DNA of 64,000 nt, taken from positions 56,882,001-56,946,000 of the forward strand of contig JAZBRS010000020.1 in NCBI GenBank assembly GCA_037176725.1. The letters run 5' to 3'. Source of the stretch: Posidonia oceanica (lineage: Eukaryota > Streptophyta > Magnoliopsida > Alismatales > Posidoniaceae). The translations under genes were made by a program, and so were the position numbers. Positions 9,343-58,170 of the stretch are shown one piece after another (position 1 is the stretch's first letter; the number at the start of each line of letters is the position of its first letter). Under the pieces are notes generated by a model, which was not told the origin of the DNA, did no database searches, and saw only the letters and a list, made by a program, of their open reading frames with translations.

Positions 9343-9551
9343 TGTAGACACCCCATTCTGACAGCTTGGAAGTTGGTAATTTCTCCTGCAGGCTTGTTTG
9401 GACTCTGGAATGGCACTCTTTTTCAGACTAACCCATTTCCAAACCTAAAACCTTACCTAAACCCCAAGCCTTAACCCAAGCCTTTTTATACCTTTTAAAA
9501 CCTTTTTAAGCCCAAGCCCAAGCCCATTTTCAGTATTTTGCATCCTCGGTT

Positions 9552-24327: not shown

Positions 24328-24332
24328 TACGC
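24328..24332 (+). repeat. Target-site duplication, left copy (TACGC)
   Basis: TACGC immediately precedes the 5' LTR of N and is repeated exactly at 51669-51673. The target lies inside a GTTGTACGC word of T. Confidence 0.95.
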
Positions 24333-27300: not shown

Positions 27301-27509
27301 TCCGGCGCCGGCTGTTCTTCCTCCGGACACTCCGACCACCCGAGCGAGCTCCGGACCATTCCCAGAGCTCCGGACGATCGCCGACGTCGTTCTTCGCCCT
27401 CCCGCGCATCCTCAGCCTCCCCTGTCGACGGCCACGGGTACTGCCGGCGCTCTGCTACAGTACTCGTCGCCGTCGACCAGTTACTGTGCATTTATTTTAT
27501 TCTGGCTAA

Positions 27510-28240
27510 AGTTTTAAGTAAATATTGCATATTTGGTTTAAGTTTCTGTCGTTTTACATTCCGGTCCTTATTCCACTTAATCTACTGTGCTTTTAAATCA
27601 AAATCATATTAAATTGTTGTTTTTATTGATGTTTTTCAGTATTTGCAATCTGGTCCATTTACTGTGCTATGCTGTTATAATATTTTGCATTTTAGCCCCT
27701 CTGTTTTCGTTTTTTGCATGTAAGTCCTGCACTAAATCATTTTATTTAAATGCATTAACTTTACCATACTGCATTGCATCCTGGCCCCCTGCATGTTTTT
27801 ATTTTTGCATTTAAGTCCCATGCACTGTAGCAACTTAGGATTTATTTTTTATTTTTGCATACTGCATTGCATATTTTACCTTTTAGTCTTGCATATTTGC
27901 AGTTAGGTCCATTTTAAATGGACAGTAACTGTGCTGCATGCATTTTAGCTTATTACATTGCATTTTTGACCCTGATCTTTTTAAAAATTGCACTGTGGTC
28001 CTGTTATTTAATTTTCAGAGCATATTTTCCATGCTAAATTGCATTTTCAGCCCCTGCATGATTTCAAAATCACACCTAGGTCCTTGCATGTTTTAAAAAA
28101 TCATGTGAAAAGACCATTTTGCCCCTAGGTTGCATTCTAGCCCCTATGCCCACCAAATTTCATGCAGACCTTCCACTAGTATCCCCAGACTCCCTGGAAC
28201 CCTGTTTTCTGGGAAATTTGCACTTTTAGCCCCTTCTCTT
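27510..28240 (+). repeat. TTTTGCATnTnAGtCC word array in the LTR
   Basis: About sixteen degenerate copies of a T-run followed by TTGCAT and, 4-6 bases later, AG(T/G/C)CC are spaced irregularly by 25-80 bp. Examples are TTTTTGCATTTAAGTCCC (27802) and TTTTTTGCATGTAAGTCC (27710). The same array is at about 49275-50000 and, more diverged, at about 61300-62190. Confidence 0.6.
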
Positions 28241-29034
28241 TTCCAAAATGTACCCTGAAATCCTGGTTTTTCCCAGTTTCTTATCATTGCTTTTTCTTGC
28301 TTTTGCATGCATCCTGCACTCATCTAGCTTCGCATTCTAGCATCTTCTTGCACACACTAAGCACTTCTAGCTCCCCTTCACCTGGGAGGACCCTTTGCAC
28401 ACCCCTAGGACCCCCCTGAACACCTAGATCTGTTCTTCTCCCCTGTTCTGGCCCTTCTGCCTTGAAGCTGCGATATCTTCCAATCCGGCCGTTGGATCTT
28501 CTCAAGTAAGCTGCCCAGGCGACTGCAGTAAAGCGCTCTTCAGCATGGACCAGACAGATTTCAGATCAGGCTCCCGGATTTCCAGGTATGTCCTCCTGAA
28601 CCCCTGCATTGCATTCATTTGCATGCCATTTGCACAGTTTTCCTTGTTTTCGCTTTCTGTCTCTTCGAGCATGTAGAATAGGACTTCCCCTTTCTGCTTG
28701 TCTATTCAAATCCCCATTTCGCGTACTCCTGTGTGTTCTGTGTTGAGTTTTCCTTGGATTTGCCACTTAATGTGACTTTCTTCCCCCTTTTCCACGATCC
28801 GATCGCATCGCGAGCTTTGGGCAGCATGCGAGACACACCGTGGAACGGTTTAGTGGGAAACAGTCGCTAAGAGGTGGTAATCCCTCCGTTTGCACACTCT
28901 CCCCTCTGTAGGTCTTCACACCTACTCTGAGTGGTCCTGAACGACGTCTGTTCTTACACACGTGTTGTTTTGACTCCCCTTTGACCTTTTCTAATCACTT
29001 TCTGCATTCTTGCATTCTCATGGCTTTTTCCGAG

Positions 29035-29270
29035 GTTTTGCTTCGCTGTTTTGGCACCATTTTGCGTGCCTGCTCTCGTTTTGGCACCGTTTTGCGTGCC
29101 CTTCTGTTTTCTTGTCTCGTTTTGCGTGTTGCCTTGTTTTCCGCCCGTTTTGCGTGCCTTTCTATTTTCTCGTCTTGTTTTGCGCGCCGTTTTCGCTCTT
29201 TTGCATCGTTTTGCGCGCATTGCTCATTTCTCGCCTCGTTTTGCGTGTTTTACGCCGTTTTCCTTTGCAT
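29035..29270 (+). repeat. GTTTTGCGTGCC minisatellite in the LTR
   Basis: About eight degenerate units of roughly 28-30 bp contain TTTTGCGTGCC or a variant. The 3' LTR copy is at 50800-51030. The diverged LTR at 58174 carries an expanded array (62985-63400). Confidence 0.65.
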
Positions 29271-29777
29271 GTCGATCGCATTGCACGGTTTTCTCGCTGT
29301 TTTGTTTTCTCGCTTGCATTTGCATATAGGGCTGTGATGCTTACTGCCTGGAGTTCTCACGAGCTAGGTTTCGCCTGGTTCGGAACACGGACAGCGTAGC
29401 TGAGCACTTAGAGAGCACGTTTACTTCTTTGCTTTGTTTCTTCCCACTTAGAGCACATCTTGAGCATTCATTCAGGCATTTATAGGCACATAGGCATTCA
29501 ATCCTGTATTTTTTTGCGTATGCGAGCGTAAGCCTAGAAAGACCGATTTTCGGGCGTGTCGGGGGTGCCTAATACCTTCCCCGCACGTAACAGGAGTCCT
29601 TACCCTGTCTTTTGGTCCGCAATGACCGTACTGCCCTTATCCTAGGCTAGAGTCATCTCATTTGCATTTGTTTGCATTTGTTTTCCTCTGCATTGCTTTG
29701 CTTTGCATTTCTTGCTCGGTTTTGTACGTTAATTCACGCATTACCCCGGTTTTCCTCGTCTTCCGTTAACAGACGTG

Positions 29778-29789
29778 GTGGCGACTCTG
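29778..29789 (+). other. PBS-like sequence inside the LTR
   Basis: GTGGCGACTCTG is identical to the first 12 bases at the true LTR/PBS junction (29906-29917) but lies 116 bp before the LTR end. It is kept at 51541-51552, 63918-63929 and 23-34. Confidence 0.7.
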
Positions 29790-29906
29790 ATTTGTCTTAT
29801 CTTCCCTTTTTCTCCTCGATTTCAAGTGTTTTCAAGTTGAGCCTCTTCCTCGGATCTCAATCGCCACTATATTTAGCGAGCCTGATTCCGATCGGGATCG
29901 CTACAG

Positions 29907-34957: not shown

Positions 34958-36450
34958 AGGGAACGCCGCTCGGGCGTCATGGCCAAGGGATCGCGGAGCC
35001 GATCATAGCAGTGGAGCGAAGGAAATCTGAAGGCCTCGGCTACGAACCAAAGCTCGATCAAGATCACTGCTTCCAGCTCAGAGATCGTGCATCAGCCATT
35101 CCCAGAGACCTCACTAACTTTACCAGTGCAGGAATTCTGGGATCAACCGACTACCAAGCTACAGCGCCGGCAGAGGATTGGGTGTGTATTGAGGACTACT
35201 ACTCGGATGAGGAGCAGTCTGATGCAATAGAGGCAGTCCCAATCAAATCAGCAGAAACAGTGGTCAGAGCAGAGGCCCCCTAGTCAGTTCATTTGGCTCC
35301 CCCTCTGGCAGAAACAGCAGGCAGTTCAGCAGGCCCTGTGGCAGATGCAAGTTCTCATCCTTTAGCAGCCACAACAGCTTCTCAAAATCAGACAGCAGCA
35401 GTGCAAGAGTCAGAGACACTCCTCTTGGCAGAACCAAGTATGCTACCAGCGGTCACAGACACATCAGTGCCACTGCCCCCATCTCTGGAAGGGCAGTCCA
35501 TCAACTCAGTCAGCAGCGTGGCCCAGCCCGCTCCCTCAACACCATCTTCAGGAATGCAGCTGGCGCAGTCCGCTCCGCATTCTCCTGACGACCTGCAGCA
35601 GCTCTCATGGCAAGACCCTATGGCGTCAGAGGCTGCGATCTCTCAGTTACGGCCCGATACAAAAGGCCAACTGAGCACTACATCATCCGGGCCCTTGAGC
35701 CCTATGAAGAGCATCCCTGCTTATTCTCCAACAGTGACCCTGGAAGCTCATTCATCAGTAGCACCGCTGGCCTGTCTATTTGGGCCTTCTACATCTGAAT
35801 TGCCATCAGCGGACGCGCCCGTGAACCAGATCATGCAGACTCCGAGGGCGGCGATCCATCTTGCAGCCGGGCCAGTGCCGCAGGCCCCCGGCGCCTACTA
35901 CGTCGACTCCCCCTCAGACGAAGAAGAAGGAGCGGCGATAGAAGCCCAGGTCGATTCTTGGATGTCCGACTTAGAGTTACTTTATCAAGAACAACTCCAG
36001 TCAATAGCGGAAGACCTGGCAGACCATCAAGCTGCAGAAAGGAAAGGAAAAACCGTAGTTACGGATCCTCCTCTGCAAGAGGACCATGCTTCTATCATGG
36101 TCCTAGAAGACTCAGTAGCGCCGGACTCCCCTAGACCAGATGAGCTCATCACTCTTCAACCAGAAGGCGGGTCTAGGTGGTTTGTACAACCCATGCCTCA
36201 CCTGAGCAATATACTGAGCGGCAGTAACCAGATCAGCCGCCAGTCCGGCGCATCCTCCACAAGCACACTAGAAGACCCAGAGGGAGGAGCATCAGTAGTA
36301 GATGCTACAGTAACAGAGCAGAATGCCTCAGCATCACAGTCAGCAGAGCAGTCAGCAGTACCGGCAGCAGAGTCAGTTGAGCCCTCAGCCGAATCAGCAG
36401 AGCACTCAGCAGAATCAGTCAGGCCAGAGCAAACAGTAGAAGGAGTTGCT
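34958..36450 (+). pseudogene. G-patch and low-complexity linker of N
   Basis: In the frame after 34957 the sequence reads GYIKGTPLGRHGQGIAEPI followed by SEGLGYEP, a good G-patch. It is one frame off the protease, so a single-base loss separates them. The linker contains TAG at 35281 and is rich in Ser, Ala, Gln and Pro. From about 36330 it holds repeated SAE/SAES units. Its equivalent in T is also low-complexity. Confidence 0.65.
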
Positions 36451-37701
36451 GGGACGGAGGTCGCGCACCGGGGCTACAAGAATACTCGAGTAGGCGTGAC
36501 CATCCTAAAGCGTCACCAGGGCCAAGCAGCGGAACACATACACTCTTTCAACATCACAAGTCCATTTTTTGAGAAAGAGATCCTCTCAGAACTTGTTGCT
36601 TATGGAGAAGAGGATGACACGGGCATGGACGAGACTGACGAACCTTTGCCCGAGTTCCGGCCCTATGACGACGACCCGGAAGGCCCCAACCTCCATGTTG
36701 AAGAAAAAACGGAGGTTGTCAACATCGGCACAGCTGAGGAAGTCAGAGAAGTTTGCATCAGTGCCCAGCTGTCCGCCCAGGCTCGAGCAGAATTCATTGC
36801 ATTCCTGAGGGAATATGCGGATGTCTTCGCCTGGAGTTATGAAGATATGGTCAGCCTTGACATAGAGATAGTGGTGCACAATCTGCCCTTAAATCCAGAT
36901 GCCAAGCCAGTAAAGCAGAAGCTAAGAAGATGGCGACCGCAGTGGCTGCTCATGATCAAAGAAGAGATAATGAAGCAGCTTGGAGTCAACTTTCTGAAGG
37001 TCGTTCTTTACCCTGAATGGCTGGCAAACATTGTACCTGTGCCCAAGAAAGATGGCCGAATCCGGATCTGCATCGACTACAGGGACCTGAACAAGGCGAG
37101 TCCCAAGGACGACTTTCCATTGCCCCACATTGACGTCCTAGTCGACAATACAGCGGGCCACAAAATGCTCTCCTTCATGGACGGCTTCTCTGGATACAAT
37201 CAGATCAAAATGGCAGAAGAAGACATGGAAAAGACCTCATTCATCACCCCTTGGGGAGTCTTCTGCTACCAAGTCATGCCGTTCGGCCTGAAGAATGCTG
37301 GTGCAACCTATCAGAGGGCCATGACTACGCTATTCCACGACCTCATACACCAAGAAGTGGAGGTCTATGTAGACGATATGATTGCCAAAACCAAAGAGCC
37401 CGAGGATCATCTTGCCTGTCTCAGAAAGCTCTTTGACCGTCTACGGAAATACAAACTGTGCCTGAATCCCAAGAAGTGCGTATTCGGGGTATCCTCTGGC
37501 AAATTGCTCGGCTACATTATTAGCCAAAGGGGGATTGAGGTGGACCTGTTGAAAGCACAAGCCATCGTGGACATGCCACCCCCTAGAACTGAAAAAGAAG
37601 TCAGAAGTCTGCTTGGGCGTTTACAATTTATCAGTCGCTTCATTGCACAGCTTACGCCCATCTGTGAACCCATTTTCAAGCTCTTGAGGAAGAATGCGTA
37701 G
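36451..37701 (+). pseudogene. Reverse transcriptase of N
   Basis: Motifs in order are KQKLRRWRPQWL, IRICIDYRDLNKASPKDDFP, FMDGFSGYNQI, TSFITPWGVFCY, MPFGLKNAGATYQ and catalytic YVDD at 37365-37376. PKKCVFGV and GIEVDLLKAQAIVDM follow. The same frame runs uninterrupted from 35293 to a TAG at 37699-37701. That stop falls in the KN-x-x-HWNEECQ segment just before the RNase H, where Gln (CAG) is the likely original. The enzyme core itself is intact. Confidence 0.85.
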
Positions 37702-39993
37702 ATCCACTGGAACGAGGAGTGTCAGGCTGCATTTGCCAAGATCAAGCAGCTGTTGATCAAGCCTCCTGTCCTGGTCCCGCCTACGCCGGGGAGACCCTTA
37801 CTTCTCTACCTTTCTACCACGCAGCATTCCATGGGCGTCATCTTGGGCCAACATGACGAATCTGGTAGGAAGGAGCGCGCCATCTACTACCTGAGCAAGA
37901 AATTTAATGAATGTGAAGCCAGGTACACAACACTAGAGAAGACTTGCTTGTCCCTTGTCTGGGCTGCACAGAAGCTGAGACACTACATGATGGCCTACTC
38001 AGTGCAGCTCTTATGCCGGCATGATCCCATCAAGTTCCTCTTTCAGAAGCCGGCCATGGTGGGCAGATGTGCTAAGTGGCAGGTGTTATTGTCTCAGTAC
38101 GACATCACCTTTGTCACACAGAAATCCATGAAGGGCCAAGCAATGGCAGACCATCTTGCTGACCTCCCTCTGCCTGAATACCAACCCCTTCAGACGCAGT
38201 TCCCTGATGAAGACATTCTCTTTGCAATGGAGGACTCTGAGCAGAAAGACCCTGAAGAAGCAGAGGAATGGAAGCTCTACTTTGATGGTGCGGTCAACAA
38301 GAAGGGTCGAGGCGTAGGCGCAGTGCTGACCACGCCCCAAGGACAGATGACTCCTTTCGCAAGGAAGCTGACTTTCACCTGCACAAACAACGAAGCAGAA
38401 TACGAAGCGTGCATCCTGGGGTTGAAAGTCGCCCTTGAGCATGAGGCGCAGAAGCTGCATGTGCACGGCGATGCCATGCTGGTAATTTCTCAAGTGAACG
38501 GCGATTGGAAGACAAAAGATCCCAAGCTTGTGCCGTATCACGAAACCCTGCTGAGGCTGATGGAAGAGTTCAAGAGCATCCGCTTCACGTACCTGAACAG
38601 AGCAAAGAACGCGTATGCAGACGCACTAGCAACTCTGGCATCCTGGCTCACCATTTCAGAAGACAGCACTGTGGATGTATCAGTCACTCGCATTGAACAG
38701 CCTGCATACTGCATGAGCATAGAGGAAGCGGATCCCGCAGAGGGGCAGCCCTGGTATCAAGACATAAAATCCTTCCTGGAGTCTGGTAGCTTTCCTCCTG
38801 ATACCACGGCAACAGACAAGAGAACTCTGGCGCGTCTGGCGTCAAAGTATGTGTTAGGGGCCGGACAGCTGTACAGAAGGTCATACAATCAGATGCTGCT
38901 GCGCTGCCTGAACAAATCAGAGGCTGACACGCTGATGCTTCAAGTGCATGCGGGGACCTGTGGCCCGCACATGAACGGCGTCCTCCTGGCCAAGAAGATC
39001 ATGCTGCAAGGTTATTTCTGGCAGACCATGGAAGCCGACTGCTGCCGGTTCGTGCGTAGATGCCACAATTGTCAAATCCATGGAAACTTCATCAAGGCCC
39101 CCCCACATCAGCTGCACAATATGTCTTCGCCATGGCCTTTCTCCACCTGGGGGATCGATGTCATCGGCGCCATCCACCCTGCTGCTTCGAATGGTCATCG
39201 TTACATTCTGGTAGCGATCGATTACTTTACCAAGTGGGTGGAAGCAGCCTCTTACAGAACAGTCACCGCTGCGGCAACAGAAAAATTTATCAGAAACAAT
39301 ATTGTTGCCCGATATGGGGTCCCGCACTCTGTCATCTCTGATAACGGCTCAAATTTCATTGCCAGAAGGATCGAAGAATACCTGCAAAGTCTCAAGATCC
39401 AGCACCATCGATCCTCGCCTTATCGGCCACAGATGAACGGAGCAGTGGAATCTGCAAACAAGAACATTGTCAAAATCCTGAAGAAAATGGCAGAAATCCA
39501 CAAGGATTGGCACGACAAGCTCCCGTACGCGCTCTGGGCGTACAGGACATCAATCCGGACCTCTATAGGAGCCACCCCGTACTCTCTGGTGTACGGCATG
39601 GAAGCGGTGTTACCTGTTGAAGTGGAGATCCCCTCCCTACGAATCCTGCGGGAAGCTGAGTTGGAAGAAGCAGAATGGGTCGAAGACCGCTGCATCCAAC
39701 TGAACTTAATTGATGAGCATAGACTGCAAGCTATGCACAACGCTCACTGCTATCAGAAGTGAATGGCCAGAGCATTCTTGAAGAAGGTCCAGCCCAGAAG
39801 TTTCCAGTCAGGGGACCTTGTCTTGCGCGCCATTCATTTGCCTGATGGTCGAGGGAAATTCCGACCCAATTGGCGTGGCCCCTTTGTGGTCAAGCAGATC
39901 TTTTCGGGAGGCGCTGTAACCCTTGAGGATATGGACCATGTCGAGCAGTCTGAGCCCGACAACCTCTGCTATCTGAAGAAATACTATCAGTAG
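37702..39993 (+). pseudogene. RNase H, archaeal-type RNase H and integrase of N
   Basis: The frame is open from 37702 except for TGA at 39760-39762. The Ty3 RNase H (LLLYLSTTQHSMGVILGQHD, LSLVWAAQKLRHY) is followed by the second RNase H (LYFDGAVNKKGRGVGAVLT from about 38275, NNEAEYEACILGL, HGDAMLVISQV, ADALATLAS). The integrase zinc region is at about 38940-39080 (C-H-N-C-Q). The core has WGIDVIGA, ISDNGSNFIA and GAVESANKNI, giving D, D, E. The C-terminus ends at TAG 39991-39993. The TGA at 39760 probably replaced CGA. Confidence 0.85.
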
Positions 39994-41493: not shown

Positions 41494-42696
41494 ATGGGTT
41501 TTCCTACTCTGCTGACTCCTACACACTGCTCGGAAACCCTGCGAGAGTGGATCGGCAGGCTCACTCTACAAGACTGTGAAAAGCTGCGCCTGTGAGGCAT
41601 ACCAACCAAGCTGCTAAAGGCTGCTGATGTGGAGGTCAGCCGCCACCTTCTGTGTGCCGCCGCGAGATTCTGGAAGCCGGCGCATCATGTCTTCCGCTTC
41701 AACAAGACTGAGCTGACACCTACACTGGAAGAGGTGCGTCGGATATGCGGCTTTTCAAAGATCTTGGGGCCGCCTGTTTTCATGAGGCGCGACGGATATC
41801 TCTGAGTCCTGAACCAACTGACTGGACTCTCCACTCAAGACTGCCAACAACACCTAATCTGCACCAGTGGACCAGAGCCTATGCTTCGCCTTGCACACTT
41901 TAATGATATCTTAAACAAGCGTGCTGACCTCGGAGATGAGCTGTGGCTCCGAGGATTCGTCATCCGCTTTCTGGGCGAACTAATCTTCACTCATGGCCGA
42001 CTAACAGTGGCCATCGAAGTCGCAGAGATCGCATTAGCTGTGGTGACCCAGCACATAGATCTGGCACCAGTTGTCTTGGCAGAGACATATCGCGGGCTGG
42101 ACCGCATTTCTCATCACTGCCGCCACTTCCACGGTTGCGGAGCACTCATACAAGTCTGGCTGACCGCGCACTTAGAGATGGACATCCTGCGCCCTCAAGT
42201 GCATGCTTTCGAAGCCTACTGCAGCAGCGCCCGTACTAGAGCAGACAAAAGCGTCAAAGACGAGTACGAGAGGCTGTCAGCATTGACTGACGACACTGTG
42301 ATCTGGCGCATCGTTCCCTCTGCAGCAGAGCCGTTCACAATCTTCTTCAGCCCGCGTGACACGCGGCTGATCATTCTCCCAGGCTTCACAGCAGGCGTAG
42401 AGTACCACCCAATCAGGGTCATGCGCCAGTTCGGCTTCCAGCAGGGCGCCTTCATTGACAGTACAACGCCTGAGCTTCTACAGACTTATCCTCTCAGCAC
42501 CACTGCCCCGACCAAAAAGCTTGCTAGTCTGATGCAGCACGGGGTCCAATCCACAGACATTGCAGCTCTGAGAGGTACAGGATGCACTCCTGATTATGAA
42601 GCTGAAGTCCGACAGCTCTGGCCAATTACTGAAGTCCCGCCAGGCGGCCCCTTATTCCCCGACTCCAGGCAGCAGAAGAAGGCCCGGGTTGACTAG
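41494..42696 (+). pseudogene. Sense accessory ORF of N, PMD/DUF7745-like
   Basis: The ATG at 41494 starts a 400-residue frame that ends at TAG 42694-42696 and has only two internal stops, both TGA (41593-41595 and 41803-41805). These are easily explained as CGA to TGA. The segment AARFWKPAHHVFRFN followed by ELTPTLEEVRRICGF matches the core pattern of genes A, B and C of T. It is the type annotated in plants as DUF7745 or aminotransferase-like. The C-terminus ends QQKKARVD. There are no introns. The position, after pol and in sense, is one of the known places for extra ORFs in Tat elements. Confidence 0.65.
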
Positions 42697-43690
42697 GCCC
42701 TTGTGCGATCATCATGTGGTCTTCTTTCAAATTGTGCTGTACATTTCTGGCCTGCCGCAGGCATTGTACCTATCAAGCTATATCAATAAAAACTGTTTCT
42801 GCTTTCTGCTTGCACATCAAGACTCTTTGCTGCATTGCATATCATCATCATCATTATCTTGGGCCCTCTAATCAGACTCGCAGACATCCCAGCGCGGCAA
42901 AGTCCTCAACACCCAATCCGGGGCCCAGAGCATCTGCAGGCCCGCGACACCAAGCTCCGCCGTCCGGCATCCTCAGCTGGTCATCCCCGGCTGGACCACT
43001 GTCCTCTGCGGGCTGGCACCCCAAACTGCCCGGTGAAAGGTCCGTCAACCTGTCATCCTCCTCAGCTGTTCATTCTCAGCTGAGTCCCTTGCGGGCTGGC
43101 ACCCCAAACTGCTCGGCGATGGGTCCGTCAACCTATCATCTATCCGCTCGCTCATCTGTCTTTGCATCTTGATGCCAAGGGCGCACCGACCATCCCCTGG
43201 TATCATCCTGATACCAGGGGCATCTTTTGGTCGCCCGGTGGTATCATCCCCAGCTGATCATCCCCAGCTGAGTCCTCTTCTCGGCTGGTCATCCCCAGCT
43301 GAGTCCCCAGTTGGTCGCCCCAGCTGGATCCTTCTCTGCGGGCTGGCACCCCAAACTGCTCGGCGAAAGGTTCGTCAACCTGAGTCCTCTTCTCGGCTGG
43401 TCATCCCCAGTTGAGTCCCCAGTTGGTCGCCCCCAGCTGGATCCTTATCTCTGCGGGCTGGCACCCCAAACTGCTCGGCGAAAGGTTCGTCAACCTGACA
43501 CTTTTCTCGGCTGGTCACCCCAGCTGAGTCCCCAGCTGATCGCCCCCAGCTGGATCATCATCCCTTGCGGGCTGGCACCCCAAACTGTTCGGCGAAAGGT
43601 CCATCAACCTGACACTCTTCTCGGCTGGTCACCCCAGCTGAGTCCCCAGCTGACCGCCCTCAGCTGAATCCCTTGCGGGCTGGTACCCCA
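42697..43690 (+). repeat. Repeat-rich region with GGGCTGGCACCCCAAACTG units
   Basis: Six copies of a phrase beginning GCGGGCTGGCACCCCAAACT, followed by CGGCGAAAGGTTCGTCAACC, occur from about 43007 to 43690. They are spaced 80-245 bp apart with CAGCTG-rich palindromic text between them (GGCTGGTCACCCCAGCTG). Confidence 0.7.
43194..43220 (+). repeat. Perfect 11-bp hairpin
   Basis: CCCCTGGTATC (43194-43204), loop ATCCT, GATACCAGGGG (43210-43220). Confidence 0.9.
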
Positions 43691-43762
43691 AACTACTCGT
43701 CTGACAAGCACGACACTCTTGTCATTACTCTCTGTTCTCGATGCCAAGGACGCGCTGGCCAA

Positions 43763-43789
43763 CCCCTGGTGTCATCCCGACACCAGGGG
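43763..43789 (+). repeat. Perfect 11-bp hairpin, covariant copy
   Basis: CCCCTGGTGTC (43763-43773), loop ATCCC, GACACCAGGGG (43779-43789). It differs from the 43194 copy by a matched A-T to G-C change in the stem. Confidence 0.9.
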
Positions 43790-43830
43790 CATCTTTTGAT
43801 CGCCCCTTGGTATCATCCCTTCCCTCTTTC

Positions 43831-43857
43831 CCCCATGACGTTCCTGGCGTCATGGGG
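43831..43857 (+). repeat. Perfect 10-bp hairpin
   Basis: CCCCATGACG (43831-43840), loop TTCCTGG, CGTCATGGGG (43848-43857). Confidence 0.9.
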
Positions 43858-43983
43858 ATGGTTTCTTCTCATCATTCCCTTACCCCTTCTTTGCCGGCCG
43901 ATAAGTCCGATATCTTATCATTCTCATCATTCCCTTACCCCTTTTTTGCCGGCCGATAAGTCCGATATCTTATCATTCTCATC

Positions 43984-44415
43984 ATGATCTCATCCCCCTC
44001 TTTAGCTTAATTTCTCATCACGACCTCATCCCCCTCTTTAGCTTAATTTCTCATCACGACCTCATCCCCCTCTTTAGCTTAATTTCTCATCACGACCTCA
44101 TCCCCCTCTTTAGCTTAATTTCTCATCATGATCTCATCCCCCTCTTTAGGTTAATTTCTCATCATGATCTCATCCCCCTCTTTAGGTTAATTTCTCATCA
44201 TGATCTCATCCCCCTCTTTAGCTTAATTTCTCATCAGGACCTCATCCCCCTCTTTAGCTTAATTTCTCATCATGATCTCATCCCCCTCTTTAGCTTAATT
44301 TCTCATCATGATCTCATCCCCCTCTTTAGCTTAGCTTCTCATCATGATCTCATCCCCCTCTTTAGCTTAGCTTCTCATCATGATCTCATCCCCCTCTTTA
44401 GTTCAACTTCTCATC
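43984..44415 (+). repeat. 36-bp tandem repeat, about 12 copies
   Basis: Units read CTCATCCCCCTCTTTAG followed by CTTAATTTCTCATCATGAT with small differences (GACC/GATC, GCTT/GGTT, AATT/AGCT). Period is 36. Confidence 0.9.
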
Positions 44416-44512
44416 ATTACCTCATCCCCTCTTTGCCGGCCGATAAGTCCGATATCTTATCATTCTCATCATGATCTTGCCCCCTCTTATCAATCAATCA
44501 ATCACTCGTGCT

Positions 44513-45561
44513 AGGCTGATATCCGAAACTATCTCAGGCTGATATTCCTAAACTATCATCTATCAATCACTCGTGCTAGGCTGATATCCGAAACTATCTC
44601 AAGCTGATAATCCTAAACTATCTTCTGGTCGATCCATGGTCGGCCCGCAGTTGTGTTATACGGCTGACATCCAGTAACTGTCCCTCGTAATTGCACTTTT
44701 CCAGTTGATAGGTCTGTAAACTATCCACCGGTTGACAGGACCGTAAACTGTCGCTCCAGTTGGTAGGACTGTAAACTACCGCGTGCAATTACGTTATACG
44801 GCTGACATCCAGTAACTGTCCCTTGCAATTGCGGTTTCCGGTTGACAGGACCGTAAACTGTCGCTCCAGTTGATAGGTCTGTAAACTATCCACCGGTTGA
44901 CAGGACCGTAAACTGTCGTTAGGCTGATACTCCTAAACTATCACCCGCAATTGCATTATATGGCTGATATCCAGTAACTATCCCTCATCATCGCGCGTCT
45001 CCAGTTGATAGGTCTGTAAACTATCCGCCGGTTGACAGGACCGTAAACTGTCGCTCCAGTTGATAGGTCTGTAAACTATCCACCAGTTGGTAGGACTGTA
45101 AACTACCACGCGCAATGATGTTATACGGCTGACATCCAGTAACTGTCCCTCGCAATGCCGTTTCCAGTTGATAGGACTGTAAACTATCCACCAGTTGATA
45201 GGTCTGTAAACTATCCGCCGGTTGACAGGACCGTAAACTGTCGTTCCAGATGATAGACTGTAAACTATCCGGCGTTGCGTTATACGGCTGATATCCAGTA
45301 ACTATCACTCATGGTTTGTGGGTTCCGGTTGATAGGACCGTAAACTGTCGCTCCAGTTGATAGGTCTGTAAACTATCCACCGGTTGACAGGACCGTAAAC
45401 TGTCGTTAGGCTGATACTCCTAAACTATCACCCCCAACCATGTTATACGGCTGATATCCAGTAACTATCACTCACAACTGCTCCGGTTGATAGGACCGTA
45501 AACTGTCACTCCCGGTTGATAGGACCGTAAACTATCCGGACGATAAGCCCGTCACCTTATC
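44513..45561 (+). repeat. Array of about 31 short hairpins with covarying arms
   Basis: Units have 4-5 bp stems and 8-9 nt loops. Types seen: GACAG-gaccgtaaa-CTGTC, GATAG-gtctgtaaa-CTATC, GGTAG-gactgtaaa-CTACC, GACA-tccagtaac-TGTC, GATA-tccagtaac-TATC and GATA-ctcctaaac-TATC. Two copies (45329 and 45486) pair GATAG with CTGTC, a U-G pair in sense RNA. A related 6-bp stem GATAAG/CTTATC with 8-nt loop is at 43900, 43955, 44442 and 45542. TTATACGGCTGA and similar phrases separate subgroups. Confidence 0.85.
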
Positions 45562-46098
45562 ATTTTTTTTTCTCCTTTTCGGCGTGACCTTGTCCCAGGA
45601 AGACGAAGTCACGCACCCCCTTTCTGCGATAGGAGAGTTGGCCTCTCTCCCCTCGCGCCCCTTCTTCCTGCTAGCTTGCTCCCCGGGCGGGGACCAGCTG
45701 CACCCTGTTTTCCTTCGCTTTGTCGTGCGAGTCTGGCCTCCCTGCCGGACATTCGCACCACATCGCGCCTTTTTATCATTTTTTTTGCATCATCTCAGCA
45801 CTTTCTTAGCTAGCAATGCATATCACTTTAGCATCATCAGCATTACTTGCACAGCATCAGCATTTTCTTATAGCTGCACTAACTTTTGTACTAACTCTTG
45901 CATTGCACTCGCATCAGCATGCATACACACAGCACAGCATCCATCTGCACCGGCATCTTGCATTGCGGCAACGGGCTACGATCTACGGTGCATCCGCCGA
46001 ATAAGTAGCTCACGCCCATAGCAACCCGCTGCTCTCGGCGGTCAGATGGGGTGTCTTGTCAACCCTAAGCAGCGGCCGCGCTCCGCTTGCCCTCGCTC

Positions 46099-46107
46099 AG
46101 GGAGGGG
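46099..46107 (+). other. Polypurine tract of N
   Basis: AGGGAGGGG followed by CATC directly precedes the 3' LTR (46112). It should prime plus-strand DNA synthesis. Confidence 0.8.
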
Positions 46108-46111
46108 CATC

Positions 46112-49100
46112 TGTTGACACCCCATCTTGGCAGGCTTGGACCCTTGGAGCCCTCTTGGTGATTGCTGGATCAAACCCCAACCCTAATCCTCCTCTCTACC
46201 CTTCAAAATCAGCTTGTCTTGACCTAAACCTTTACCCCCCTTCCCGACCTCAAAACCTAACCAAAATCCATAGGAAAACCTACCACTATCCACTCAACAA
46301 ACCTACCCAAAGACCTAGGAATTTCCAAACCTAACCCATTCCCAAAAACCTAAGAAAACTTAGGTAAAACTACCTTTTTTCTACACCTTGAAACCCCTGC
46401 AAAACCTCTTTAAAATCAGACCAAAACTTCAGACCTAACACTAGAAACCTTAGGCTGCCCACTCGCCAATTCTCACCCCATTCCAAGACCATTAAGACCC
46501 TCTTTCACCCAAATTATCCTTTTCTCTCTCCGGGATTATCATTTTCTCTCTCCTCTCTCTCTCCTGATTATCATCTCTCTTCTCATCCCCTTCTTATCCT
46601 TTTTCTGGTCTGGCTGTGGGCCCCCTCTGTGCCTCTATCCTTCCTCTATCTTATCCCTATTTTTACTTTATTTTTAACACTTTTTCTGAATTTTAATAAA
46701 TCGTTTTCCTCCAACCTATCTTTTTTCCTTTTATCTCCCTCCTTTTTCCATTTCTTTCCTCCTTCTCTTTTCTTTTTCTCCCTTTTGCAAAAATCCACAA
46801 AAACCCATAAAAATCTGCAAAACCTCAAAACATAAAACAACAAATCAGTACCCTAAGAAAAACAATTAAAAAATATATTAAACAAGCCATTAAGAACTTA
46901 AACTTAACTTAAGCAAGCTAAAAGGAAAACCAAGCATGCAAACTAAAAAATGCAAAACAAATCAAAAGAAAACACTGAAAAATCGAGGAAAAAGCTAAAA
47001 TAAAATCAAAACCCACCAAAGGTAAAAACCCATCAGAAGAATTAAAAACAAACCCAAAAACAAGAATTAAAAAAAAATCAAATGCTAAAACAAGTAATTA
47101 AGGAAGACAAAAGACTTAACTTAATAAACATAAGAAAAACAAGTAAAAAACTTAATTAAAAAAGAAAAGAAAAACACATCTGAAAAGCCTAAAAAACACT
47201 CTATCAAACCAGAAAAATCCAACTAAAAACTTCAAGAAAAATCAACAAAATAAAAATCAAAACACAACTTAAAAGATTTAAGAAGGAAAAACCTTAACAA
47301 GACTACAACTTAAAAGTCTAAAAAACATCCTGATTAATGGGAAATTAAATCCTAAAAAATCCTAATTAATATCCTAAGTGTCCAACAAGGGAAACACATT
47401 TTTTAAAACAATTTAAAAAAGGTTTAACAAACATTTAATCAAGTGAAAACTAATTAAAAGCAAAACCAAAACCCTAAAATCCTAATCAAGCCCAAAACCC
47501 ATTTAAACCACACTAATTAACCAAAAGGAGTCATTAAAAAATCTGATTAAGATCCTGTTTCACAGCACAAGCACCTTAATATTTTTACTTATTTTTAATT
47601 TATTTTTTCCTATTTTTCCCCATTCTACCCTCTCTTTCTTTCTTCCTTCTTTCTTTCTTTCTTTCCTTACTGGGCTCAATCCGGCCCGTTTCTCCTTTTT
47701 TCTTTTTTTTTCTTCTTTCTTTTTTCTCGGCCCGTAGCAGTCCGGCCCGTTTTCTCCTTCTCCTTCCTTCTTCTTCCTCGCGCTTCCACCGGATTTCCTT
47801 CCCGCGAGCTCGCTGCTACAGATCTCCCTCCATCCATTTGAATTCGAAGCTCCGTCCTTTCATCTACAGCAGCTCGCCGTCTCCTCATCTCAGCACCAAA
47901 TCCGGAGTCGGTCGCCTCGCCGTCTCCTCTGCTGCAGTGGCCGCCGACGAATTTGAAATTCGGAAGCGCGCCAGCAGCCGGCCTCCACCAGATATAAGCC
48001 TCTCCTTCGTTCCTCCTTCGGTGGGCGGATGAACCTTCAGTAAGAGAGCAAACCCAGAGAGCGTGAGTGATCTCAGAGAGCAATTCAGAGAGCCATTCCC
48101 ACTTCCCTTCTTCCACCTGCAACTCCTTCCTCTTCTTCTCTGTCTCCCCCACTTCCAGAGGAGAGAGTGGCCAGAAAGAGTGGTTTGGGAGTCACCTCTG
48201 TATCCCGGAGAGAGACTCCAATCCCCCAGCCTCCTCCACCCAATTCCCTTCCCTTCCTCTGCCAAAAACTTCAGCAAAACCTCCCCTCTCTTTTCCAGTG
48301 AGCCAGGCCCTTTCCCAGCCTCCATCTTCCTTCCTGTTACTTCCCCAATCTCACCCAGCACATGACTTTCTTCCTCCAACATTCACCAGCCGTTCCACCA
48401 CTTAAAAATCTCCCAGAAACACACCCTGATCCCAACTGAAACCCAACTCCTCCCCTTCGGCAATTCCCTCTACTCCAGCTCACCGCCTTCCCCCAAACTT
48501 CTTCCAGAGACTCACTGGACCTCCATCTTCTCAAAACACCAACCATCAAACCCAGCCACCCACCACAGACCGAGAACTCCACTCCAAACACCTGCATCAA
48601 CCACAGACCAAAATTTGTCCCAACTCCCAAACCCCCTCCACTCGTACCAGAAACCTTCTCCGAGCATCCAGCTACACTCCTCAGACCTCCAGCAACCTCC
48701 CGGAGGGCTTCGCTCCGCCAGACGAGCAGCCAACACCTCCCCCGGCCTCCGGCAGTATCAGGCGAACCCAAAAGTGCTGGATCTCCCTCCAGCCTTCGCA
48801 GCTCACGTCTGACCACCTGGGAAGCTCCGGAGGATCGTTCTGAGGCGACTCCAGCCTTCGCGAGCCGCTGAAAGCCTCCCCTACAACCGGACGACGACCA
48901 CCGGCCGACTCCGACACTGCCGAGGTCGGGAGCGCCTTCCGGACACGATCGCAGGTACCACTCGCTCCCCCCTCTCTCTCCTCCTCCTGCTGCTTCTCCG
49001 CCAGTCAGAACCGAGTTCTGAGCGTTCCGGACGCAGTTGCAGTTCGCCGGACAGCTCTCCTTCTCCGGCGCCGGCTGTTCTTCCTCCGGACACTCCGACC

Positions 49101-51668
49101 ACCCGAGCGAGCTCCGGACCATTCCCAGAGCTCCGGACGATCGCCGACGTCGTTCTTCGCCCTCCCGCGCATCCTCAGCCTCCCCTGTCGACGGCCACGG
49201 GTACTGCCGGCGCTCTGCTACAGTACTCGTCGCCGTCGACCAGTTACTGTGCATTTATTTTATTCTGGCTAAAGTTTTAAGTAAATATTGCATATTTGGT
49301 TTAAGTTTCTGTCGTTTTACATTCCGGTCCTTATTCCACTTAATCTACTGTGCTTTTAAATCAAAATCATATTAAATTGTTGTTTTTATTGATGTTTTTC
49401 AGTATTTGCAATCTGGTCCATTTACTGTGCTATGCTGTTATAATATTTTGCATTTTAGCCCCTCTGTTTTCGTTTTTTGCATGTAAGTCCTGCACTAAAT
49501 CATTTTATTTAAATGCATTAACTTTACCATACTGCATTGCATCCTGGCCCCCTGCATGTTTTTATTTTTGCATTTAAGTCCCATGCACTGTAGCAACTTA
49601 GGATTTATTTTTTATTTTTGCATACTGCATTGCATATTTTACCTTCTAGTCTTGCATATTTGCAGTTAGGTCCATTTTAAATGGACAGTAACTGTGCTGC
49701 ATGCATTTTAGCTTATTACATTGCATTTTTGACCCTGATCTTTTTAAAAATTGCACTGTGGTCCTGTTATTTAATTTTCAGAGCATATTTTCCATGCTAA
49801 ATTGCATTTTCAGCCCCTGCATGATTTCAAAATCACACCTAGGTCCTTGCATGTTTTAAAAAATCATGTGAAAAGACCATTTTGCCCCTAGGTTGCATTC
49901 TAGCACCTATGCCCACCAAATTTCATGCAGACCTTCCACTAGTATCCCCAGACTCCCTGGAACCCTGTTTTCTGGGAAATTTGCACTTTTAGCCCCTTCT
50001 CTTTTCCAAAATGTACCCTGAAATCCTGGTTTTTCCCAGTTTCTTATCATTGCTTTTTCTTGCTTTTGCATGCATCCTGCACTCATCTAGCTTCGCATTC
50101 TAGCATCTTCTTGCACACACTAAGCACTTCTAGCTCCCCTTCACCTGGGAGGACCCTTTGCACACCCCTAGGACCCCCCTGAACACCTAGATCTGTTCTT
50201 CTCCCTTGTTCTGGCCCTTCTGCCTTGAAGCTGCGATATCTTCCAATCCGGCCGTTGGATCTTCTCAAGTAAGCTGCCCAGGCGACCGCAGTAAAGCGCT
50301 CTTCAGCATGGACCAGACAGATTTCAGATCAGGCTCCTGGATTTCCAGGTATGTCCTCCTGAACCCCTGCATTGCATTCATTTGCATGCCATTTGCACAG
50401 TTTTCCTTGTTTTCGCTTTCTGTCTCTTCGAGCATGTAGAATAGGACTTCCCCTTTCTGCTTGTCTATTCAAATCCCCATTTCGCGTACTCCTGTGTGTT
50501 CTGTGTTGAGTTTTCCTTGGATTTGCCACTTAATGTGACTTTCTTCCCCCTTTTCCACGATCCGATCGCATCGCGAGCTTTGGGCAGCATGCGAGACACA
50601 CCGTGGAACGGTTTAGTGGGAAACAGTCGCTAAGAGGTGGTAATCCCTCCGTTTGCACACTCTCCCCTCTGTAGGTCTTCACACCTACTCTGAGTGGTCC
50701 TGAACGACGTCTGTTCTTACACACGTGTTGTTTTGACTCCCCTTTGACCTTTTCTAATCACTTTCTGCATTCTTGCATTCTCATGGCTTTTTCCGAGGTT
50801 TTGCTTCGCTGTTTTGGCACCGTTTTGCGTGCCTGCTCTCGTTTTGGCACCGTTTTGCGTGCCCTTCTGTTTTCTTGTCTCATTTTGCGTGTTGCCTTGT
50901 TTTCCGCCCGTTTTGCGTGCCTTTCTATTTTCTCGTCTTGTTTTGCGCGCCGTTTTCGCTCTTTTGCATCGTTTTGCGCGCATTGCTCATTTCTCGCCTC
51001 GTTTTGCGTGTTTTACGCCGTTTTCCTTTGCATGTCGATCGCATTGCACGGTTTTCTCGCTGTTTTGTTTTCTCGCTTGCATTTGCATATAGGGCTGTGA
51101 TGCTTACTGCCTGGAGTTCTCACGAGCTAGGTTTCGCCTGGTTCGGAACACGGACAGCGTAGCTGAGCACTTAGAGAGCACGTTTACTTCTTTGCTTTGT
51201 TTCTTCCCACTTAGAGCACATCTTGAGCATTCATTCAGGCATTTATAGGCACATAGGCATTCAATCCTGCATTTTTCTGCGTATGCGAGCGTAAGCCTAG
51301 AAAGACCGATTTTCGAGCGTGTCGGGGGTGCCTAATACCTTCCCCGCACGTAACAGGAGTCCTTACCCTGTCTTTTGGCCCGCAATGACCGTACTGCCCT
51401 TATCCTAGGCTAGAGTCATCTCATTTGCATTTGTTTGCATTTGTTTTCCTCTGCATTGCTTTGCTTTGCATTTCTTGCTCGGTTTTGCGCGTTAATTCAC
51501 GCATTACCCCGGTTTTCCTCGTCTTCCGTTAACAGACGTGGTGGCGACTCTGATTTGTCTTATCTTCCCTTTTTCTCCTCGATTTCAAGTATTTTCGAGT
51601 TGAGCCTCTTCCTCGGATCTCAATCGCCGCTATATTTAGCGAGCCTGATTCCGATCGGGATCGCTACA
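46112..51668 (+). repeat. 3' LTR of N (5,557 bp)
   Basis: It is near-identical to 24333-29905 and has the same ends. Differences I noted are mostly C/T or A/G, for example 25973/47734 and 29093/50884 regions, plus a shorter TTTC microsatellite and a few 1-9 bp indels. The TTGCAT array, TGCGTGCC array and internal PBS-like site are all retained. Confidence 0.95.
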
Positions 51669-51673
51669 TACGC
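51669..51673 (+). repeat. Target-site duplication, right copy (TACGC)
   Basis: Exact repeat of 24328-24332. Joining the flanks restores a continuous word region of T. Confidence 0.95.
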
Positions 51674-52278: not shown

Positions 52279-55200
52279 CTAGGGGGCACTCTCTCCCTCA
52301 CCCTTAGGAGCTGAAGCAGGAGCTGAAGTAGGAGCCGGAGAAGGGGCAGTAGCGGGACGAGGCGACTGTCGAACCGAAACGCCTGACGGGGCCCTGGAAA
52401 TAGACCGAGAATAGTGGCTACCTGACCGACAGCTCGGCACAAAGGGAACAAGCACCCCGAGCCTGGCACCAGCTAAAAAAGCAAACCTTCGGTAGTGCCC
52501 AAGCTCAAGCTCAAGCTCAAGCTGGGAGATAATGCTCGCTGTGCCCTGAGAAGAGAAGCAGTCCAAAATATCAGATATAAGTGAGGACATGGAAGACATA
52601 AAGAAGCACTGAATTAAATCATACCACCTGAGATTGGGCGATCTCAGCATCCCTATCAGCCACTTGCTGCTCCAGCTCCTGGATCCAAGCGCTTCTAGTG
52701 GCCACTATCCCCTCCAGCTCCTCCAACCTCCCAACAGAGCTGGCAGCTATAAAGTCACCAGCCCGCTCCCTCAGCTCGCCCTCTAGATAAGCAACCTACA
52801 AGCAATGGCGTCAAGACCAAGGAAATTTCAAAAGCAGAAATAAAATAAAAGCATGTTTACCTTCTCCTAGAGATGGGAGATCTCCTCTGAGCGGTCCGGA
52901 GGGGGAGCACTGCTAGTCGAAGGCTGAAAAGAAAGATTCAAGTCAGTTACAATTCATAGCCAGACTACAAAAGCTACTTGTGAAAGTACCTGAGAGGCAG
53001 AGGCCCGTAGATGGTCAATCTCCCAGGTCAGAATGGAGAGCTGCTGCGTCAAGTGGTGCTCCTGCTGAGCCCACTCATCGGCCGCTTTGAGCTACAAAAG
53101 AAAGAAAGCAAGTTAGCCAAATTGAATTAACAGTCTACAAAATGAAATTCAGAAGCTCACCGCTATCTCCAGCTGGGCTCGAGAAGTATGAACCTCCTCC
53201 AACAGGGCCGCACGGGAAACCACCGCCTCCCCGGGATCTGTGTCCCCCAAAGGAAGGTTCCCACGCCCAAGGAAGTGGGACCGGTGGAAGATCATCAGAG
53301 AGGAAAACTCCCAGTCTATCCACTCAGCCCACTCCGCCTCGTCCTCCTCTATAGCATTCGTCTGAGCGGGGGAACCACGACGGGCCCAGTCCAGGAGCTG
53401 TGGACCGTAGACGTCCACCTAGTGGCGAGCACAGCTGCCCCCACCGCGTGTCTCTCCCCAAACTCGGTGAGGTGGAGGTGAAGGCTGAGCCTGCCGGCGT
53501 CCTAGCTGTCGTAGTGCCCTGCCAATCTGCTGGAAGTGGCAGTGGTTCCAATAGTGGATCCATACGTCCTGGTCGAAAATGGCCCGATCACGGGCAATCT
53601 CGGGGATGTCCGCATGCTCTCCCTCAGCATAGGAATGCCAAACCACTTGAAAGGAGCAATACATGTCAGCAAGCGGCATAAACAAATAAACAGAAGCTGA
53701 AATTAAAAGAAGCAAGTTACCTGAGCCAGGACAAGAAGCTCGAAAAGCAGATGATCGACATAGCGGTTGTCATCTGCTGGCTCGAGGGCTTGCTCAGCAG
53801 CAGCCCAAAATAGTCCCTGAGGAAAGAGGACACCGGTAGGCGGAACCGGAGGAGGGGCAGGGCGCAGAAAGGCGAAGTGGTCCTACGCCCACATCTGCAC
53901 GCAAAACGAGGAAGCTGTTAGGAAGAATATAATATCCAATGCAAGCTTAAATATGCAGATTTACTTGAAGGAAGGGTAGGTTCCCACCCAGCTAGCGAGA
54001 ACTGCCATCAGTGAAGCAGAATAGGGTGGAGTACAGGTTCGCCAAGCTGGCCGCACCCCAAGCGTACTCTCCCACACGCTCCAGGTCCGCCAGAAGAGGA
54101 AGGAACCACACCAAGAGCTTTGAGGAGTGCGAGAAGAGCACCTCCCCAAACAGCACCAGGAGGAAGGCCTGCAGCTGCTGGTCAGCCTCCACACCTGGTC
54201 CGGCTACTGTCTTCGCCAGCTCACTCACCCGGCGAACCGCAGAAGTGATCACCACAAGCTGCTCCCCGCTCATGGCTAACTGGCGTCCAACAAGCTCCTG
54301 TGCCAAAACCGAGTAGCCCGGGCGCACCCGCCCTGTCACTGGTCTACCCGTGACCCAGAGACCAGTCAGCCGTGCCATGTCCTCAAGGGAGAGGACACAC
54401 TCACCTGCCCTCGTAACGATCGAGCTCGTCCGGAAGCTCCACCGCTCTGCAACCGCTTCTAGAAACATCGGACGAAGGGGAAAGTCCGGGATGGACAAGA
54501 AATGCCTAAATCCCATCCAATCCAGACGCTCCTGCTGGAAAGAAGCCAACAAAGCGTACGACCGGCGGACCTAACCCTAGTAGCAGTGGGTCACGGCCGA
54601 TGCTCGACACTACAAGCACGCAGAAGAACTATCAGTCAAGATGAAATAATTGAACAAAATAAGGAAATAAAGAATGGAAAATGTATACCTGCCCCCTAGA
54701 AGCCGGTGTGGCAGTGGCGTACTCTGATCGGGATGCGTCCTTACGCGGTCCCGATGCTTGCACCTCGTCTCTGGGGATCTGCTCCCGCCAGTAGTCCGAG
54801 GGATCCCTCGCATCGCCCTCCGCCTCCCGTCGGATGAAGTCAACCATGTTCCGCCACCAGCCGTCGTCCTCGCCAAATTGCATGAGGAAGGGGTTGATTG
54901 GCCTCGCCTCGGGCACCTTCGAAGCCCCTTCCTCGTCTAGGCTGACCTCAGGCCTCACCTTTGAGACCGTCTCCTCTGAATCCTCCAAGCTGAAGGAAGT
55001 GCTGGAACCGAAGGCCGCCTCTGCCGTCGTCTCTACGGCCTCCCTGGAACCAGAGTCCTCCCCCACGGTGGCCTCACTGGCCGTCGCCTCCGCATCCACA
55101 CGTCGTCACCAACCACCACCTCGGCCTCTACGGTACCACCAACGGCAGCCCCCATCTCCGCTCCTGTAACCTCGGCATCGCCACCGGATGTCTCCCCGAG

Positions 55201-57533: not shown

Positions 57534-57612
57534 AGAATTGAGAGCAGAACAGCAAGAGCCCTGGAGCACAACTGGGTCAACAAAGCAAGCAAAGCCAAAA
57601 AAAGTATCCTTT

Positions 57613-58170
57613 TCGACTCCCTTGGGCCATCCCCAAGGCACGTCATGTTTTTTATTTTCAACTCCCTTGGGCCATCCCCAAGGCACGTCATGTCTTTATT
57701 TTCGATTCTCTTGGGCCATCCCCTAGGCACGTCATGTCTTTATTTTCGACTCCCTTGGGCCATCCCCTAGGCACGTCATGTTGTTTTTTTCGACTCCCTT
57801 GGGCCATCCCGTAGGTACGTCATGTTTTTAATTTTGACTCCCTTGGGCCATCCCCTAGGCACGTCATGTTGTTTTTTTTGACTCCCTTGGGCCATCCCGT
57901 AGGTACGTCATGTTTTTATTTTCGACTCCCTTGGGCCATCCCCTAGGCACGTCATGTTGTTATTTTCGACTCCCTTGGGCCATCCCCTAGGCACGTCATG
58001 TTTTTATTTTTGACTCCCTTGGGCCATTCCCTAGGCACGTCATGTTTTCATTTTTGACTCCCTTGGGCCATCCCCTAGGCACGTCATGTTTTTATTTTTG
58101 ATTCCCTTGGGCCATCCCCTAGGCACGTCATGTTTTTTATTTTCGACTCCCTTGGGCCATCCCCTAGGCA
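57613..58170 (+). repeat. 43-bp tandem repeat, about 13 copies
   Basis: The unit has a TTTTCGACTCCCTTGGGCCA half and a TCCCCTAGGCACGTCATG half followed by a T-rich spacer. Each unit carries TGGGCC and ACGTCA. The array ends abruptly at the next LTR and lies upstream of gene C on that gene's strand. Confidence 0.9.

Follow-up and report, generated by a model that had tools for sequence, protein, structure and literature searches.

A tandem array of short co-varying units in an Ogre-type retrotransposon of Posidonia oceanica, probably part of a large sense-strand RNA structure

Arrays of interleaved short repeats located between the coding region and the 3' LTR have been described for several Ogre/Tat retrotransposons of plants, viz. 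the minisatellites of soybean Gmr9/GmOgre (PMC3305785) and the arrays of Lathyrus and pea (PMC7004042). The accessible portions of these papers treat such repeats as a source of satellites: the Gmr9-associated minisatellites number 63,841 copies in soybean and their function is given as unknown (PMC3305785), and Ogre 3' repeats are described as seeding satellite DNA (PMC7004042). The words hairpin, secondary structure and pseudoknot are absent from the accessible text of PMC7004042 and PMC11963269. Consecutive pseudoknots in a plant 3' UTR are also found in TMV and related plant viruses, and no domain helices or closed junction are described for the TMV upstream pseudoknot domain in the available part of the source (PMC4683447). 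Structured genomic RNA that is bound by multimeric or host proteins and brings about the export of unspliced RNA is represented by the HIV-1 RRE, the constitutive transport element of MPMV and the CERV of Cer1 (PMC10309623, as far as its accessible text goes).

In the present work, we describe an array from P. oceanica in a window of 64,000 nt (the whole stretch of DNA that was analysed), which is most simply read as a large sense-strand RNA structure predicted to lie, in an Ogre-type retrotransposon, downstream of the last ORF and ahead of the 3' LTR (probability roughly 0.7). It is comparable to the Gmr9, Lathyrus and pea repeats by its placement and its short interleaved repeats, to the RRE, transport element and Cer1 by position and structure alone, being far more repetitive than these, and to TMV by its consecutive units, with up to 34 units having a loop-flank stem of at least 3 bp as against three pseudoknots (PMC4683447, accessible part). 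The open-access literature yielded no paper on tandem pseudoknots in a retrotransposon untranslated region and, judged by title and beginning of abstract, no plant LTR retrotransposon with pseudoknot or hairpin repeats; a related search of it gave virus papers among the matches listed and no like element.

The element carrying the array has two LTRs (24333-29905 and 46112-51668) that match at 99.07% over the 5576 columns of the LTR-LTR comparison, and a 5 bp target duplication, TACGC, was read directly on both sides of the LTR pair (24328-24332 and 51669-51673). The Ogre lineage is marked, among other things, by a tRNA-Arg primer site and by an intron between gag-pro and pol. In this copy TGGCGACTCTGCTGGGGA lies 3' of the 5' LTR, and gag-pol is split over several separate ORFs. 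The reverse transcriptase domain is located in the ORF 35293-37701, and the ORF 37753-39762 holds RT_RNaseH (12-116), RVT_3 (177-295), H2C2 (387-443) and rve (462-559), a Ty3/gypsy pol order in which, as we read RVT_3, RNase H and integrase are separated by a further RNase H. This arrangement covers Ogre and Retand alike, and a plant mobile domain ORF, present here as an extra ORF, is reported from 57% of Ogre elements; the very large size of the Posidonia element (27.3 kb, with 5.6-kb LTRs) slightly exceeds the approximately 24 kb and 5 kb given for Ogre (PMC6317226, accessible text). Two other plant mobile domain ORFs lie outside the element on the minus strand (53992-54552 and 22789-23949, the latter under the curated cut-off). 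Among the best 120 of 1791 matches to the integrase-region ORF, the homologues are from plants where named (Cicer, Coffea, Trifolium, and others) and the top match has 61% identity. A reverse transcriptase query and an integrase alignment found no relative among viral contigs, and the reverse transcriptase/integrase query against genome contigs gave one bacterial locus at 26% identity, which was set aside. The array lies within the 3.4-kb stretch that separates the 3' LTR from the plant mobile domain ORF.

The first-pass annotation of this DNA had reported about 31 tandem hairpin units at 44513-45561, and our analyses bear this out: 44,527-45,530 contains exactly 31 copies of the right arm AACTRYC. 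By their loops these units comprise 19 of class A (GTAAA), 6 of class B (CCAGTAAC) and 6 of class C (CCTAAAC or CCGAAAC). The alternation of stems that had been described is found in class A, where the arms are GATAG/CTATC in 9 units, GACAG/CTGTC in 6 and GGTAG/CTACC in 2, as are the two GATAG/CTGTC units with a U-G pair in the sense RNA (2 of 19); the second class said to show the same paired change corresponds to class B, with GACA/TGTC and GATA/TATC in three units each. The common loop core GTAAA/GTAAC holds for the 19 class A units but not for the 6 units of class C, which had not been separated, and the range, although it fits the 31 units, is too narrow, since related units begin at 43,015 and the 3' region contains 42 in total. 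Outside 44513-45561 these are six class E units and four of classes D and F (S2 starts 43,703; 43,900; 43,955; 44,442), and a class D unit with its S2 start at 45,542 ends at 45,561, inside that range. In class E the arms change from GGCA:TGCT to GGTA:TACT in the last unit, and 5 of 6 units have, by eye (the first unit was also folded), a nested CGGGC:GCYCG stem as a competitor to the pseudoknot. Repeated CTCRGCTGG...CCAGYTGAG hairpins in A-U, G-C and G-U states adjoin the class E units at 42970-43670. A hammerhead-like reading of CTGATA...CGAAAC in class C was rejected by eye, there being no stem II. Nine consecutive T come after the last class D unit (45542-45572), an arrangement shaped like a terminator. 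The features are summarized in Table 1.

Table 1. Coordinates, within the window, of the element and of the units, joints and predicted helices of its 3' region
Feature	Position	Strand	Characteristics
LTR retrotransposon, Ogre type, carrier of the array	24333-51668	+	about 27.3 kb
Plant mobile domain (PF10536) ORF, the last large sense ORF ahead of the array	41881-42696	+	E 8.6e-12, over curated cut-off
Six class E units	43010-43698	+	GGG-CT-GGYA-CCCCAAAC-TRYY; S2 starts 43015, 43098, 43345, 43460, 43574, 43682
Class F unit	43697-43723	+	S1 TCGT:ACGA, S2 GACAAG:CTTGTC
Two class D units	43894-43974	+	S1 CGG:CCG, S2 GATAAG:CTTATC
Class D units three and four	44436-44461 and 45536-45561	+
Four class C units	44513-44626	+	S2 starts 44518, 44541, 44583, 44606
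P4 5' arm GCAGTTGTG	44647-44655	+	9 bp with 45473-45481
Class B joint 1	44656-44685	+
Domain 1	44686-44793	+	P3 44686-44696 / 44783-44793; three class A; duplex -16.6 kcal/mol
Domain 2	44824-44955	+	P3 44824-44834 / 44945-44955; three class A, one class C; -18.9 kcal/mol
Domain 3	44986-45120	+	P3 44986-44998 / 45108-45120, one C-A mismatch; four class A; -17.6 kcal/mol
Domain 4	45151-45279	+	P3 45151-45160 / 45270-45279, one U-G; four class A; -17.9 kcal/mol
Domain 5	45310-45442	+	P3 45310-45322 / 45432-45442, interrupted; three class A, one class C; -15.0 kcal/mol
Other five class B joints (TTATAYGGCTGAYATCCAGTAACTRTCMCT)	starts 44794, 44956, 45121, 45280, 45443	+
P4 3' arm CACAACTGC	45473-45481	+	pairs with 44647-44655
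Two class A units and last class D unit	45484-45561	+	outside P4, T run next

The stem formed by the two arms of a unit (S2) is found in all 31 units, two of them with one U-G pair. Perfect non-overlapping stems (at least 5 bp, loop 4-12) number 24 in 44,513-45,561 as against 6.4 +/- 2.2 (maximum 13) in 200 dinucleotide shuffles; this count includes inter-unit and S1-type stems and is inflated by tandem copying, hence covariation is the better test. A second stem (S1) is formed by the loop and the 5' flank. The class A consensus is CCRG-TT-GAYAG-GN-CYG-TAAA-CTRTC (GGTAG/CTACC in two units, one unit 1 base shorter), and in 19 of 19 units the loop pairs with the flank as CAG:CTG or CGG:CCG, flank R and loop Y varying in step (A opposite T in 10 units, G opposite C in the other 9); this R-Y pair has the highest association among all column pairs, 1.00 bit, and S1 is extended to CRGT:ACYG in 12 of 19. 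The pseudoknot structure pairs 97.5% of the class A cells against 92.1% in shuffles (1 of 500 as high), with a covariation of 0.290 against 0.166 (1 of 500) and at most 0.087 in slid versions, for an alignment in which only 9 of the 19 rows are distinct. Two other class A measures were unremarkable, viz. further pair types (4 against 4.7 in shuffles, 488 of 500 as high) and pairs with two-sided change (3 against 1.4, 43 of 500 as high). Inter-unit stems of the form AACTG...CAGTT were rejected by eye, their partner letter being independent of the R change.

The letters of S1 differ between classes and yet pair (CAG:CTG, CGG:CCG, TCGT:ACGA, GGG:CCC, TTAGG:CCTAA). An S1 of at least 3 bp is present in 23 of 27 distinct units, as compared to 32% with permuted flanks (0 of 5000 as high) and 21% with shuffled flanks (0 of 2000 reaching the observed value), and the 3' flank used in place of the 5' flank gave 2 of 31. 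Across the 42 units, S1 is 3-5 bp long in 34 and only 2 bp in the remaining eight (five of the six class B units, three of the six of class C); the four class C units at 44513-44626 have 3 bp in one and 2 bp in three. A unit of about 25 nt consists of S1 (3-5 bp), L1 (1-2 nt), S2 (4-6 bp) and L3, which is short and reads TAAA in class A. The pairing of loop with flank supports the predicted layout of an H-type pseudoknot, and layout and covariation, both read from sequence, are those of consecutive H-type pseudoknots. The earlier description as hairpins in tandem was thus correct as to the pairing of the arms but incomplete, as the loops have their partners in the 5' flanks, and helices between the spacers gather the units into five domains within one junction.

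The units might instead be nested only, forming simple hairpins or switching between S1 and S2 inside closed domains without pseudoknots. Either stem taken alone is a hairpin, folds of single units show S2 in some units and the S1 stem in others, and covariation is blind to whether two stems pair simultaneously or alternately; S1 and S2 are, however, both retained together with a short and near-constant L1 and L3, which alternation does not need, and we consider this reading rather unlikely.

Beyond the units, the predicted RNA is organised into five domains of 121-148 nt, each holding three or four units and closed by a helix (P3) with arms of 10-13 nt. Four pairs of P3 spacers are complementary (CGTAATTGCAC/GTGCAATTACG, TGCAATTGCGG/CCGCAATTGCA, CATCATCGCGCGT/ACGCGCAATGATG, CGCAATGCCG/CGGCGTTGCG) and a fifth is complementary with interruptions (CATGGTTTGTGGG/CCCCAACCATG). 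The cognate duplexes range from -15.0 to -18.9 kcal/mol, the true pairing ranks first among 120 assignments, and the longest stems average 9.0 against 5.3 in 2000 shuffles (maximum 7.6). When the arms are anchored at their outer end and 11 positions are compared, 51 of 55 cells are paired, 10 of 11 pairs show two-sided change, and the covariation is 0.836 against 0.352 in shuffles (0 of 500 as high) and at most 0.188 in slid controls. Between domains the P3 arms are 49% identical, as against 99% for two aligned class A units of the same five domains. The units and joints appear to be held or homogenised in sequence, and the helix arms to drift in pairs. An arm private to each helix would favour its own partner and could thereby prevent misfolding of a repetitive array; selection may have acted on this hindrance of wrong pairing among repeated domains, and private arms in a repetitive array would represent a natural case of orthogonal-helix design. 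All of the unit, helix and covariation counts refer to one copy of the element and five P3 domains.

Paired change could also arise if C-to-T decay ran in parallel on the two strands, or if tandem amplification had spread a small number of chance changes, and it is indeed by transitions that the class A, B and E arms change on both sides; linked subtypes without pairing were also seen, by eye, in an unpaired 36-nt array nearby. However, P3 pair 4 takes the states A-U, C-G and G-C, and G-C alternates with C-G in pairs 8, 9 and 11, changes that such decay is unable to produce. As the helices are of unequal length, these inner pairs are subject to the choice of anchoring. S1 changes from CGG:CCG to CGT:ACG between classes D and F, and C-A states are absent from S2. 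Unless the P3 alignment is wrong, these transversions contradict the proposal; plain C-to-T decay was rejected on account of those in P3, and we regard this account as extremely improbable.

Little more probable is the suggestion that the arms are half-sites of a dimeric DNA-binding protein and their pairing a by-product of symmetry. Inverted repeats at fixed spacing can be bound as DNA, and the related Retand elements carry antisense ORFs thought to be DNA-binding (PMC11963269, accessible text). Half-sites would nevertheless be expected to keep their sequence, whereas the P3 arms differ from domain to domain and still fit; furthermore, S1 and S2 interleave, and the wobble in S2 is sense G-U in 8 of 8 cells, though these represent few events.

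The first-pass annotation also offered template switching, by a polymerase or reverse transcriptase copying one arm from the other, as a source of pairing without selection. Perfect arms with new sequence, as in P3 of domains 1 and 2, are what such rewriting would yield, but it has become less likely since interleaved stems of 3-4 bp and helices with about 85-110 nt between their arms co-vary too. The process would have to stop exactly at the conserved joints in six helices, to span those distances within the domains and more than 800 nt for the closing helix described below, and to hit the short S1 stems as well; one stepwise G-U intermediate is present in P3 of domain 4. Moreover, a 44-nt tandem array in the same window (57605-58170) contains a palindrome in which, among the 12 units read, 10 have changes in a single arm (13 units are listed, of which 12 match the pattern; the one at 57708 was left out), which indicates that arrays in the window keep no pairing by default. 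We consider rewriting very unlikely. The 44-nt array had itself been a candidate for a second example of paired change and was rejected because of this one-sided decay; it ends just before the LTR-like start (58174) of a related element.

The pairing of the two spacers left over from the five domains, viz. the first 3' spacer and the last 5' spacer, gives a further helix, P4, whose register beside the joints is the same as that of P3. The cyclic assignment including P4 is the best of 720 (-101.1, the next being -88.0). P4 was noticed by inspection before its test, in which 9 bp were reached in 8 of 20,000 shuffles of the spacer pair; one non-cognate pairing, that of the 5' spacer of domain 2 with the first 3' spacer, equals it (-15.9). 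The six joints of about 30 nt have a mean identity of 92% over 31 nt, their GAYA:TRTC stem having C-G in three and U-A in three. P4 would thus close the five domains into one six-helix junction with six near-identical joints, spanning 835 nt, and in an unconstrained fold of 3262 nt the six helices (five P3 and P4) have mean probabilities of 0.91-1.00. A more elaborate picture, which we offer as speculative and on balance doubtful, is that of an RNA wheel, in which six helices with largely orthogonal arms are set around a closed junction that repeats one joint six times and the spokes bear pseudoknot arrays, the whole providing a pseudo-six-fold scaffold for the assembly of a protein of the element, such as Gag or the plant mobile domain protein, in the export and packaging of a very long RNA.

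Several of the folding results weigh against the structure. The nested 3262-nt fold gives several S2 stems probabilities of only 0.12-0.55 and in places prefers inter-unit stems; in it, the last two class A units find their partner at 43587-43614, in the class E region (0.83-0.97). Folding z values are modest over 44651-45650 (-0.28 to -2.75, sense) and lowest at 42,901-43,900, upstream of the 31 units; the means are -2.15 (sense) and -1.81 (antisense) for the whole 3' region and -0.33 and -0.41, respectively, for the rest of the internal region. Rfam, searched over 42500-46300 with E up to 10, gave no credible family, its five matches all being on the minus strand and far under their gathering scores, and the unit patterns had 0 matches in viral contigs.

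The strand of the structure is indicated by the 197 S2 cells of the 42 units, of which 189 are Watson-Crick, 8 are G-U and 0 are A-C in the sense reading. The argument from wobble is modest because the 8 G-U cells derive, by our estimate, from perhaps three events. The sense reading has an L1 of 1-2 nt and, in class A, an L3 of about 4 nt; H-type pseudoknots allow loops of these lengths, whereas in the antisense reading the short loop would need to cross the shallow groove. Loop geometry thus points the same way as the wobble. The C-A mismatch in P3 of domain 3, which is a G-U on the other strand, counts against the sense reading. Selection on a sense RNA structure, the simple reading proposed at the outset, is supported by the lack of A-C cells in S2 and by the covariation of helices with private sequences.

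The most likely function, which we put forward tentatively and by analogy, is that of a multivalent scaffold for the export or packaging of unspliced genomic RNA. The genomic RNA running from LTR to LTR would contain the array region, and with it many copies of one small RNA shape to which a protein could bind cooperatively, candidate binders being Gag, the plant mobile domain protein encoded just upstream, or a host protein. The bound array would then single out the unspliced, full-length RNA to be exported from the nucleus, protected and packaged, for which the HIV-1 RRE and the MPMV transport element would be retroviral parallels. According to the accessible portions of the sources, Ogre transcripts are spliced only in part (PMC6317226), retroviral genomic RNA is exported through structured RNA bound by NXF1 or Rev multimers, and export of Cer1 requires a protein of the element (PMC10309623). 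A multivalent RNA next to an accessory ORF would fit such a role.

The main alternative, which we hold to be less probable, leaves the RNA structure the same and assigns it a role in translation or stability, like that of the upstream pseudoknot domains of plant viruses. The three consecutive 3' UTR pseudoknots of TMV are bound by eEF1A and have a part in replication as well as in translation (PMC4683447, PMC8518580, accessible parts). Those viral RNAs, however, end in a tRNA-like structure, for which Rfam gave no match in the array region (42500-46300, E up to 10). The RNAs of LTR retrotransposons are polyadenylated, which likewise counts against this alternative.

If the 3' repeats of Ogre are structured RNA, their hypervariability would be expected, pairing being selected rather than sequence, and the reason for their persistence would become testable; repeats usually seen as spacer may then be working RNA structure. 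Should the wheel prove true, the hypervariable 3' repeats of Ogre in general would represent fast-evolving structured RNA.

Other repeats were also observed in the window. Two long perfect hairpins at 43194-43220 and 43763-43789 (CCCCTGGTATCA/TGATACCAGGGG and CCCCTGGTGTC/GACACCAGGGG) are set apart by a change of A-U to G-C that keeps the pairing. The 36-nt tandem array (43976-44434, 12.8 copies) is without clear hairpins and has linked, unpaired C/T subtypes, and three 28-nt units with GCTGG...CCAGC hairpins are located at 9846-9928, after another LTR-like start at 9343.
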